Below are positions 59,571-62,742 of a stretch of DNA of 64,000 nucleotides, in pieces. The translations under genes and the position numbers were made by a program. Numbering within the stretch: position 1 is the first letter of the stretch; the number at the start of each line of letters is the position of its first letter. Source of the DNA: Chloracidobacterium sp. N (GTDB taxonomy: Bacteria; Acidobacteriota; Blastocatellia; Chloracidobacteriales; Chloracidobacteriaceae); the NCBI RefSeq assembly GCF_018304765.1, contig NZ_CP072642.1, positions 107,501 to 171,500 on the forward strand. The letters run 5' to 3'. The notes under the pieces were generated by a model, which saw nothing but the letters and a program-made list of their open reading frames with translations, did not search any database and had not been told where the DNA came from.

Positions 59571-59608
59571 TTGACCGTAGCCTGGAAGCAGCTACGGTCA
59601 ATCTTTTT
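59571..59608 (+). terminator. intrinsic terminator of the tonB-exbBD operon
   Basis: TTGACCGTAGC (59571-59581) and GCTACGGTCAA (59591-59601) form a perfect 11-bp stem with a nine-base loop. TCTTTTT follows. This separates the TonB operon from the E1-like gene downstream. Confidence 0.92.
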
Positions 59609-59660: not shown

Positions 59661-60914
59661 ATGGAGTCCTTCTTTGAGCGACAGGAACGACTGAGCTGGT
59701 GGAGGCAGGAGGTTCTGCAGTCAGCGCGCATCATGGTGGTTGGGGCTGGCGCGCTGGGCAATGAAACCCTCAAAAACCTGGCTCTCTTGGGGGCACGGCG
59801 GATGCTGGTCGTTGACCAGGATGACATTTCTCCCTCCAACCTCAGTCGCACGGTCCTGTTTCAGCCTGCTGACATTGGTCGTCGCAAGGCACAGGTAGCG
59901 GCTGAGCGGACACAAGCCCTTTGCCGTGATACCGGGGGGACGGTCCGCGCACTGGATGCTGACCTGGTGTGGGATGTCGGACTCGGTGTCTTTCGGCGGA
60001 TGGACGTGATTTTGGGCTGTGTGGACAATGACGAAGCACGTCTGGCCATCAATCGTGCTGCGCGCGCCGTGGGCGTTCCCTGGATCAATGCCGGCATGCA
60101 TGAGCTGACCGGCAGTGTCACCTCATTTTCAGGTGAGGCCGGGGCATGTTTTGAATGTGCTGTGACCCCGGATCAGGTCGCCGATGCGCAGTCACGGTAT
60201 GATTCCTGCGAACAGGTGCGCCGGCGCCACATGGTGGAAGACCGTTTGCCGACGATCCAGGTGACATCGGCACTGACTTCCGCCCTTCAGGTTCAGGAAG
60301 CCCTCAAGGTGCTGCACGGTGAGCCGGTGAACTTTGGTGTGCGGTATGTGTACAACGGTCACACCCACGGCTTTCACGCGATTCAGTTGCCTTACGACCC
60401 GCACTGTCTGGCTCACGGTCGTCTGGGTCCGGTCATGGAATTGCCCATTGGTGTGGATACTTCACTAAGGCAGACCCTCGATGTTCTCGAAGAACGGTTT
60501 GGACGTGGGGTGACGGTCCACCTCGGCCGGCGCTACATCCGCCGTATTGCCTGCCGTCAGTGTGGCCGGCCCCTGCTGGTGCAACGTCCGGCGCACCGGC
60601 TCTACGATGACGAGCTGGTTTGCGCTGACTGTCCAAGCCCCGCCGTTTTTGCTATAAGTGAAGCATTGCCACCGGTGGCTACCGCAGACAGCTACATTGA
60701 AATTATCACTTGCTTTACGGGCGACACCTTTGGGGGGGCACCCATGACGGGTGAGGACGAGCAGCGTACGTTGCGCCAACTGGGACTACCGCCCCTGCAC
60801 ATTCTGATGGTCGAGGACCAACGGGGACGACACTGGTCCTGTGAGTTGACCGGTGATGTGGCAACCGTTCTGGGAGACTGGGGAGTGGAAACCTTGGCCG
60901 CATCCCGTGGATAA
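59661..60914 (+). CDS. E1-like (ThiF/MoeB/HesA) adenylyltransferase with C-terminal zinc ribbon
   Basis: A 417-residue E1-superfamily enzyme. The ATP motif is MVVGAGALGNETLKNLALLG (25-44, GAGALG 28-33); DQDDISPSNLSRTVLF (52-67) and Asp122 in GCVDNDEAR complete the adenylation site. Cys163/166 (GACFEC) and Cys183 (DSC) are candidate thioester or zinc residues. After the E1 fold comes an unusual part: a zinc ribbon (CRQC 298-301, CADC 321-324), then EDEQRTLRQLGLPPLHILMV. MoeB and ThiF lack this tail. It probably activates the Ubl protein encoded at 61459. Start ATG 59661; an upstream TTG is less likely. Confidence 0.82.
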   Translation: MESFFERQERLSWWRQEVLQSARIMVVGAGALGNETLKNLALLGARRMLVVDQDDISPSNLSRTVLFQPADIGRRKAQVAAERTQALCRDTGGTVRALDADLVWDVGLGVFRRMDVILGCVDNDEARLAINRAARAVGVPWINAGMHELTGSVTSFSGEAGACFECAVTPDQVADAQSRYDSCEQVRRRHMVEDRLPTIQVTSALTSALQVQEALKVLHGEPVNFGVRYVYNGHTHGFHAIQLPYDPHCLAHGRLGPVMELPIGVDTSLRQTLDVLEERFGRGVTVHLGRRYIRRIACRQCGRPLLVQRPAHRLYDDELVCADCPSPAVFAISEALPPVATADSYIEIITCFTGDTFGGAPMTGEDEQRTLRQLGLPPLHILMVEDQRGRHWSCELTGDVATVLGDWGVETLAASRG

Positions 60915-61081
60915 CCTGACTCCCGGGCGTGGCGTCCCGCATCGGAAGCGATGACGGGCTTCCCCGAAGCGTGGACGTGTGAGTGGCATTGGTGGGCGGC
61001 GGCTTCGACAGCCTCGAAGGTTTTCAACTTCAGCCCCCTACATCCCAGACAGCTTCTGGCTTAGGAAAGGATACGTGCCGT

Positions 61082-61405
61082 ATGGAAGGGGTCGCAGTTT
61101 TGGGTTCGCTTCTTTTCATACTGATTATCCTCGTGTCCTGTGGCTTTGAGTTCTATGAACTCTACCAGGTACGCCGTGAGCTTGAAGAAGGAAGCCGCTC
61201 CGGGAATCATATTCTGTTTCCACGGCACCATTATGCCGATTTACACCGGCGGAACTACTATACCCCCTCCCTGCCTGGAAGCGCAGGGCGTACCTTTCGC
61301 GTCAAGCGGGAAGATCAACCGGTGCGGTGCGAAGTGTGTCACCAGGACGACTGCTTCGAGGTGCCAACCGGTTATTGCACACGCTGTGACCATTACACCT
61401 TGTAA
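61082..61405 (+). CDS. small membrane zinc-ribbon protein
   Basis: A 107-residue protein lying between the E1-like and the ubiquitin-like genes. It has one N-terminal membrane segment (about 3-21, VAVLGSLLFILIILVSCGF) and a C-terminal zinc-ribbon with five Cys at 83, 86, 91, 99 and 102 (CEVCHQDDC ... CTRC). A longer frame from 60983 is unlikely. It may anchor the neighbouring pair to the membrane or be their target; this is inference. The function is unknown. Confidence 0.6.
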   Translation: MEGVAVLGSLLFILIILVSCGFEFYELYQVRRELEEGSRSGNHILFPRHHYADLHRRNYYTPSLPGSAGRTFRVKREDQPVRCEVCHQDDCFEVPTGYCTRCDHYTL

Positions 61406-61458
61406 TCTGAAGCCCATGTGCACAAGGGCGCTGACATCAGGAGTCGAGGTCGTTGCCA

Positions 61459-61704
61459 ATGTCTGATGTTGACATCACCTTTCGCAATGAAAACAACGGG
61501 AAGGAAGTGGAAGTTACAGTTTCTGACGACATGACGGCGGACGCCATTGTGCGAAACCTCATCGAGGCCGGTGTCATCCCGAATGTGCCGGGGACGACGC
61601 TCGTGTTTCGCAATATGCAACTGCGTCCCAACCAGACCTTGGCTCAGGCGGGAGTGGTCTCCGGGGATACGATCGGGATTTTTCTCAACACCCGTGGTGG
61701 ATAG
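61459..61704 (+). CDS. ubiquitin-like protein ending in Arg-Gly-Gly
   Basis: An 81-residue beta-grasp protein. The pattern DITFRNENNGKEVEVTV, MTADAIVRNLIEAGVIP, TTLVFRNMQLRPNQTL, DTIGIFLNTRGG follows the ubiquitin strand-helix-strand order; it aligns better with YukD/ubiquitin than with ThiS or MoaD. It ends exactly in RGG, as mature ubiquitin does, so no processing is needed. ATG at 61459 has GAGG nine bases upstream. Partner of the E1-like enzyme at 59661. A sulfur-carrier role cannot be excluded. Confidence 0.8.
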   Translation: MSDVDITFRNENNGKEVEVTVSDDMTADAIVRNLIEAGVIPNVPGTTLVFRNMQLRPNQTLAQAGVVSGDTIGIFLNTRGG

Positions 61705-61746: not shown

Positions 61747-62364
61747 TTAGGGAATCCCCACGGTATCCGTCTGGGGCAGAACGCGGAGTTCCGGCCGGGC
61801 ATAGTGGGCCTGGAGGCTGGCGCGGATGGCATCAATATACTCATCCCGATAGGTCCAAAACCCTTCAAACCGACGCTTCCCGCCGGCCTGCCCGTTTTTG
61901 ACGGGTGCGGCTTTGACAGGTGCGGCCGGGGGCGGCTCCGGCGCATGGCACTCGCGGGCAAACAGGGCGATCCGAAAGCGGGGATCATCACTGAGAACAA
62001 TCCAGTAGTCCCGACACTCGGCGTCAGCCGGGCGGAAAAACTGAAGATTGTCGGCGACGAAGGGGGGCGCGATGTCGGGTTCACCAATGATCCAGACCTG
62101 TTGTGAGGTACTGGCAATCGCCGCATAGCGTTCCTGCTGGTGCAGAAACAGCGACAGTCTCTGAAAGGAAGCGACGAACAGCCCGGAGAGCCGTTTCTCG
62201 ACGAAGCGGTCTTCGATGTAGTGTGAAATGCTCAACATCAGGGAAAAGTTGAGCGTGCGGAACGTATCGGTCTCCGTGACGGGTAGCCCGCCACCGTTGC
62301 GCTCGGCGCGTGCGTCGAGGTGATGCACAATGTCTTCAAACGTTTTGACGATGGGTGCCGACAT
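61747..62364 (-). CDS. DICT-like sensory domain protein
   Basis: A 205-residue protein. TFEDIVHHLDARAERN, TLNFSLMLSISHYIEDRFVE, SFQRLSLFLHQQERYAAIAS and VWIIGEPDIAPPF resemble the DICT domain, found in bacterial and cyanobacterial signalling proteins, often with GGDEF or kinase partners; here it stands alone. An Ala/Pro/Lys linker leads to a helical C-terminus. ATG at 62364 is preferred; frames further upstream lack likeness. A palindromic motif lies about 100 bases upstream. The ligand is unknown. Confidence 0.55.
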   Translation of the reverse strand: MSAPIVKTFEDIVHHLDARAERNGGGLPVTETDTFRTLNFSLMLSISHYIEDRFVEKRLSGLFVASFQRLSLFLHQQERYAAIASTSQQVWIIGEPDIAPPFVADNLQFFRPADAECRDYWIVLSDDPRFRIALFARECHAPEPPPAAPVKAAPVKNGQAGGKRRFEGFWTYRDEYIDAIRASLQAHYARPELRVLPQTDTVGIP

Positions 62365-62604
62365 GGCGAAACTCCCGTGGCAACCGCGCCCCATCGGCGA
62401 CCGGCGGGAATGGGCTGCCGGGGACATGGCTCGTTGGTCGTGATGGTGTCTCCAACGGCTAAGTGTATTTTCATACACTTTGGGAGGGGACACAACCCAT
62501 GTTCCGCGAAAAAGTGTATTTTTTTTTAACTTTGTCCCGGGGCGCGCCGTTCCGGGGCAGGACGTGGGGAGGGAGGGCAACGGCAGGTGCCACAAACAAA
62601 GGGC
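62365..62604. other. gene-free stretch between the DICT-like gene and the tRNA promoter
   Basis: No gene is supported in these 240 bases. Its main content is the inverted repeat at 62461-62480 and a matching half-site with a T-run at 62512-62528. Confidence 0.5.
62461..62480. promoter_or_regulatory. palindromic operator-like inverted repeat upstream of the DICT-like gene
   Basis: AAGTGTAT and ATACACTT are separated by TTTC. A second AAGTGTAT half-site lies at 62512-62519, 51 bases further on (about five helical turns). The arrangement fits a dimeric repressor or activator site. Confidence 0.45.
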
Positions 62605-62634
62605 TTGACAAAGCCGTTTCAGGCTGTCTATCCT
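62605..62634 (+). promoter_or_regulatory. promoter for tRNA-Gly
   Basis: TTGACA (62605-62610) and TATCCT (62629-62634) are separated by 18 bases; the -10 is 33 bases before the tRNA. Confidence 0.75.
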
Positions 62635-62667
62635 GCTGAGCGCTCGACAGTCCCGGTGAGCATGTCT

Positions 62668-62742
<75 letters not shown>

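Follow-up and report, generated by a model that had tools for sequence, protein, structure and literature searches.

Genes of a probable ubiquitin-like conjugation pathway, dispersed over the genome in Chloracidobacterium and retained throughout its order

Three linked genes of Chloracidobacterium sp. N encode an E1-like activating enzyme, a membrane zinc-finger protein (ZR) and a ubiquitin-like protein (Ubl). As far as can be read from the sequences, they most probably form the activating half of a full pathway for ubiquitin-like conjugation, whose genes are dispersed over the genome. The window, i.e. the whole stretch of 64,000 nucleotides that was analysed, is C1:107501-171500 of the genome G000 (3.7 Mb, 2 contigs, 100% complete). 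The initial annotation had described the trio as a possible minimal system lacking E2 and JAB. The two are indeed absent from the trio locus, but both are encoded elsewhere in the genome, and the minimal three-gene reading was rejected because genome searches recovered an E2-like and a JAMM/JAB gene in each of the 14 order genomes. The features are listed below, with window positions unless a contig is given.

59571..59608, plus strand: intrinsic terminator that closes the TPR-lipoprotein gene upstream and parts the trio from it
59661..60914, plus strand: E1-like activating enzyme, 417 amino acids, ATG at 59661, matching PF00899 (ThiF) with E=5e-45
60207..60209, plus strand: codon of C183 (RYDSC), candidate catalytic (thioester) cysteine of E1, invariant in 13/13 orthologues
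60432..60890, plus strand: C-terminal domain of E1, approximately residues 258-410, with an inserted C4 zinc site, proposed to be UFD-like
61082..61405, plus strand: ZR, membrane-anchored zinc-finger protein, 107 amino acids, with its conserved start at ATG 61082
61459..61704, plus strand: Ubl, 81 amino acids, C-terminus RGG, identified by Pfam and PDB profile alignment
C1:571316-571870, minus strand: E2-like protein, 185 amino acids, outside the window
C1:1527409-1528188, plus strand: JAMM/JAB protease, outside the window

All open reading frames of the trio were present as described, with E1, ZR and Ubl on the same strand. The claim that they make up a transcription unit of their own was borne out by the terminator, a perfect 11-bp stem (59571-59581/59591-59601) followed by a T run (-21.7 kcal/mol, z=-4.1; 0/200 shuffles were equally stable). 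It had been overlooked by the automatic scan because its loop exceeds the length that the scan allows. A gene for a DICT-domain protein (window 61750-62724, minus strand) is convergent with Ubl; the genus keeps this linkage, G007 and G008 do so at least in part, and the other family does not show it.

The linkage of the three genes was a check set beforehand. E1, ZR and Ubl have the same order and strand in 13/14 order genomes, and in the 14th (G008) the contig stops inside ZR. The trio is therefore not a chance arrangement, and the proposal of a ubiquitin-like conjugation system of three linked genes was supported, the linkage being kept across the order. Two genomes (G011, G013) have a contiguous E1-ZR-Ubl-E2-JAB arrangement, and a third (G012) has the same arrangement with one glutamate-cysteine-ligase-like gene (identified by eye) between E2 and JAB. 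In G010, E1-ZR-ZR-Ubl-E2 are found together and JAB elsewhere; the two tandem ZR genes between E1 and Ubl (L036 8428-9117) both carry an F-x-[VI] motif. Within the order the operon form is limited to one family. In three genera (G007, G008, G009) an E2-JAB pair lies apart from E1-ZR-Ubl, with ZR-Ubl at a contig edge in G008, and in the seven Chloracidobacterium genomes, a genus sample that includes MAGs, the pathway is split over three loci. It is single-copy in all 14 genomes. Mapped on these gene orders, one operon appears to have come apart stepwise with all parts retained. A contiguous ancestor is favoured because an operon is found in the outgroup G420; stepwise assembly, the reverse direction, is the less likely course.

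The E2-like and JAMM/JAB genes were found by searching the order genomes with the UQ_con, Prok-JAB and JAB profiles. The E2-like gene is present in 14/14 order genomes when 162 genomes from the class are searched by profile, and all 14 members match PF00179 (UQ_con), in each case below the cut-off. The pattern HPHVWxDGKxCxG is kept, with HPH and the cysteine C95 invariant in 14/14. Most E2s read HPN at this position, where the order has HPH instead. The PDB sequence matches are E2s throughout, the best being UBE2W, which also reads HPHV, and the profile matches E2s of fuller operons at 97.9% in hhalign. The top 50 Foldseek matches were all E2s as well, which is supportive only, the query model being poor (pLDDT 44.6). 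The JAMM/JAB gene is likewise present in 14/14 order genomes. Its HTHPGFGVFMSGTD and the upstream glutamate are intact and invariant in the 13/13 aligned sequences (a motif of the E...HxHPx7SxxD type), and the best PDB match is of the Rpn11 type. Since the genes are unlinked in Chloracidobacterium, the proposed partnership of E2 and JAB with the trio is drawn there from orthology with the sister-family operon. No RING E3 was found in the 14 order genomes with PF14446, which represents one prokaryotic RING family. A search of seven order genomes with PF00227 (proteasome family) gave one match of HslV strength and a second, weak one per genome. The weak one, C2:847443-847976 in G000, may be an Anbu-type peptidase. 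A proteasome link was set aside, neither match being near the loci studied.

The E1 matches the eukaryotic activating enzymes UBA2 and UBA7, the E1s of SUMO and ISG15, best among PDB profiles (3.8e-33 to 5e-33), with MoeB (1.3e-25) and ThiF (2.1e-25) behind. In the alignment of 13 orthologues the cysteines C183, C163, C166, C249, C298, C301, C321 and C324 are invariant. The first zinc site is probably made up of C163, C166 and C249 together with H252, and C298, C301, C321 and C324 can be paired into a second. The zinc-containing tail noted initially was thus recovered as a second C4 site in the alignment. The AlphaFold (AF2) model (pLDDT 78.6) is without the large catalytic-cysteine domain, and C183 sits in a low-confidence loop. 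Residues 8-399 of the model superpose on residues 5-535 of UBA2 (9dqb_B; VIA-align) with Z 26.3 and rmsd 4.8 over 307 aligned residues, and the same span superposes on UBA1, UBA3, UBA6 and UBA7 with rmsd 6-8. In canonical E1s a ubiquitin-fold domain at the C-terminus recruits the E2 (PMC12355090). Because the superposition reaches this E2-recruiting part of the eukaryotic E1s, the C-terminal domain is likely to be UFD-like and to recruit an E2, as judged from models superposed at rmsd 5-8.

The adenylation fold and a CxxC zinc site are shared by this E1 with MoeB and ThiF, and Ubl ends in GG. The trio could therefore be a sulphur-carrier pathway in which a ThiS/MoaD-like Ubl is thiocarboxylated by a MoeB/ThiF-like E1. 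This is very improbable, since MoeB and ThiF are without the extra C-terminal domain, an E2 with an active-site cysteine is present in every order genome and Pfam groups Ubl with SUMO, ubiquitin and YukD, not with ThiS/MoaD. The same alternative is further weakened by a fused MoaD-E1 with JAB and cysteine synthase, and by a second MoeB-like gene, in the same genome. In the loci read, the surroundings of the trio held no thiamine, molybdopterin or sulphurtransferase genes; genes of these kinds are found elsewhere. The fused MoaD-E1, JAB and cysteine synthase genes lie at approximately 560-564 kb of G000 C2 (L024, L076) and make up a separate sulphur-carrier system.

Ubl is the most conserved member of the trio. 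It was found in 14/14 order genomes with 77-98% identity, exceeding E1 (47-89%) and ZR (25-86%), and had no match in the other 44 class genomes of the same search. In G007 Ubl is 85% identical, versus 62% for the neighbouring ribosomal protein S1 gene. The alignment has 49 invariant columns out of 81, FLNTRGG included, and IFLNTRGG, the last eight residues of the core, is invariant in 14/14. Within the genus dN/dS is 0.014-0.056, i.e. purifying selection. Pfam places Ubl with Rad60-SLD/SUMO-like proteins (2.8e-7) and ubiquitin (7.6e-4), and in PDB profile alignments, each of them weak by itself, residues 13-81 match RUB1, ubiquitin and NEDD8 and end at their GG. The YukD family of Pfam gave 25.7 bits, just below the cut-off of 27. 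A YukD-like role, with Ubl as a structural or secretion factor that is not conjugated, is nevertheless extremely improbable: RGG is invariant, the E1 is linked, in relatives together with E2 and JAB, and no type VII secretion (ESX) genes are found nearby.

The description of Ubl as ready-ended in RGG holds for the window species but not for the family. RGG is exactly terminal in only 3/14 genomes, the window's among them; the other 11 have tails of 1, 1, 1, 7, 8, 9, 10, 11, 16, 19 and 21 residues that are unalignable. An invariant RGG followed by such a tail looks like a processed pro-ubiquitin that requires a protease. In the archaeon Caldiarchaeum GG is followed by nine more residues, and the E1 activates the protein only once an Rpn11 homologue has trimmed them off (PMC5654768). 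The tails of the order may also be neutral extensions that arose through stop-codon loss and drift.

The membrane zinc protein reported between E1 and Ubl was confirmed in its layout, one N-terminal hydrophobic helix and a C-terminal CxxCH...CxxC with a single C4 site. Among 14 sequences F72, C83, C86, H87, C99 and C102 are invariant and the rest is poorly conserved. ZR had no match in Pfam, NCBIfam or PADLOC, and no convincing relatives in PDB. It is a candidate E3-like adaptor.

Directly before the finger, ZR reads TFRVKR. A motif of this kind, [TK]-F-x-[IV]-[KR], a short one picked out post hoc, recurs in ZR, twice in E2, in JAB and in outgroup E1s. At its N-terminus JAB always reads M-[TK]-F-x-I-K; in G494 the protein starts MSEPDNFVIKRREMP. 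The C-terminus of E2 has its two copies on a Pro/Gly-rich linker, e.g. THTFVVKR and GGRFQVRS, and the form in ZR, immediately before the finger, is [TKV]-F-x-[VI]-[KRNQ]. Alignments gave SQFTIKP, SSFVIRP, VFQLKE (twice) and FHLKN at the N-terminus of the E1 of five relatives, and similar peptides are found in the G420 operon (SRFVISH in E1, KRFEII in JAB and KKFEFHG at the end of E2). In G000 only one gene, that of JAB, starts with MTFxIKxV. A genome search for T-F-x-[IV]-K-x-[IV] recovered E2 and JAB; the remaining matches were inside unrelated enzymes or outside likely genes, and were rejected as further pathway proteins. The shared motif is proposed to be a docking peptide, and its partner is perhaps Ubl, in the style of a SUMO-interacting motif.

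The components, active-site residues, conservation, gene organisation, tail pattern and motif are sequence-level results, from which we infer catalysis, direction, partners, substrates and the role of the pathway as follows. Ubl would be made either RGG-ended or as a pro-protein; the latter form would prevail among the relatives, and its tail would be cut off by the Rpn11-like JAMM protease. E1 would adenylate the C-terminal glycine, hold Ubl as a thioester on C183 and recruit the E2 through its ubiquitin-fold-like C-terminal domain, after which the E2 would accept Ubl on C95 and attach it to target proteins at their amino groups. ZR, anchored in the membrane, would stand in for a RING E3 and direct the reaction to membrane substrates or to the membrane itself, and the JAMM protease would undo conjugation. 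The motif [TK]-F-x-[IV]-[KR] in E2, JAB, ZR and ancestrally E1 would keep the dispersed parts on a common partner, perhaps Ubl. The fullest form of this reading is put forward tentatively, at slightly under even confidence: an order-wide core housekeeping pathway in which an Rpn11-type protease matures the pro-Ubl, E1 recruits its E2 through a ubiquitin-fold domain, the E2 is an HPH enzyme resembling UBE2W, a zinc-finger protein serves as membrane adaptor and a docking peptide shared by the parts unites the scattered pathway.

The closest relative is the operon of G420 (L165 7019-10362), from a different family, with a zinc ribbon, E1, Ubl, E2 and JAB. It resembles the order's system in these components, in its E2 (profile match 2.5e-40) and in an F-x-I-type motif, but there the gene for the zinc-ribbon protein comes ahead of E1, Ubl has TQAG-EQ at its end, the membrane helix is on JAB and the region looks mobile. 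Integrase-like, Fic-like and CHAT-like proteins were recognized by eye in its surroundings. In G275 (L058) and G378 (L059) the genes for Ubl, E1, JAB, E2, FHA, RING and GYF membrane proteins are linked. These operons have a homologous E1 with the same C-terminal domain, E2, JAMM and Ubl, but are patchy, their Ubls end ITAG rather than RGG, and the FHA, RING and GYF membrane proteins are extra. The whole cluster (L058 7386-13892 in G275; L059 in G378) comprises a trypsin-like membrane protease, Ubl, E1, JAB, FHA, a Prok-RING_1/TM2 protein (PF14446), a GYF membrane protein and E2; its RING type is reportedly that described by Burroughs and colleagues in 2011. Related systems are also present in G017 and G015, and in the latter (L061 7977-13704) a RING-like protein, E1, a TIR-like protein and a fused Ubl-E2 are clustered. 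By this comparison the group is patchily distributed outside the order, and the order's system is its fixed branch with an RGG end.

Bil and Cap2 combine E1, E2 and JAB, and elsewhere in the Acidobacteriota the homologous operons have a patchy distribution, one of them adjoining integrase-like and CHAT-like genes. It is for these reasons conceivable, but unlikely, that the order has fixed an operon of the Bil/CBASS/Bub kind that serves in anti-phage defence. The system is single-copy in all 14 order genomes, Ubl has a dN/dS of 0.01-0.06 and the parts are spread over the chromosome, in contrast to mobile defence systems with their compact operons. No full PADLOC model was matched; E1 gave only a partial BilD match (36 bits, residues 22-133), and BilA, BilB and BilC had none. 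A mobile origin was also set aside, Ubl having no match in the plasmid search. A core regulatory pathway is more likely than a defence system because of single-copy presence, vertical inheritance and extreme conservation. The conjugation reading was strengthened, and the genomes compared appear to hold a fixed ubiquitin-style pathway that is neither minimal nor mobile.

Among known systems the ubiquitylation operon of Caldiarchaeum subterraneum (PMC5654768) is similar in having a single Ub-like protein with a tail after GG, an E1, an E2 and an Rpn11-type JAMM. It is archaeal and has a small RING E3, whereas the order has a one-helix membrane C4 zinc finger and mostly dispersed genes. Iyer et al. 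2006 (PMC1779556) described mobile, strain-specific Ubl/E1/E2/JAB operons (types 6a-6e), whose logic is shared by these, by Bil and by the present system. The E2s of type 6d are without the classical histidine and have an alpha-helical partner; here HPH precedes C95, and neither the trio nor the operon includes such a gene. Bil (BilABCD) is a contiguous four-gene operon, in contrast to the three loci of Chloracidobacterium, where contiguity is restricted to some relatives. BilA is a tandem two-domain, ISG15-like Ubl, while Ubl here is a single domain of 81 amino acids. SAMP/UbaA of haloarchaea also combines Ubl, E1 and JAMM; to our knowledge it has no E2, which the order's system has.

Most bacterial ubiquitin-like systems studied to date are patchy and linked to phage defence or other mobile operons. 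If the proposed pathway is real, an order-wide, core-gene-like system with the eukaryotic part set (a pro-Ubl tail, an E1 with a possible E2-recruiting domain, an E2 and an Rpn11-type protease) makes the use of a bacterial Ubl in ordinary regulation directly testable, and Chloracidobacterium strains exist in culture. It is also a warning that operon-based surveys overlook systems with dispersed parts. The kind of system is already known in bacteria; its fixed, dispersed, pro-ubiquitin-like variant looks new in a comparison that leaves aside the Bub (Gong 2025) and prokaryotic RING systems (Burroughs 2011). As a separate observation, a 20-mer, ACCTTTGACATAAAAACTAT, is repeated at G000 C2:746567-746842 and in two other strains, by its look a tandem or interspersed repeat.
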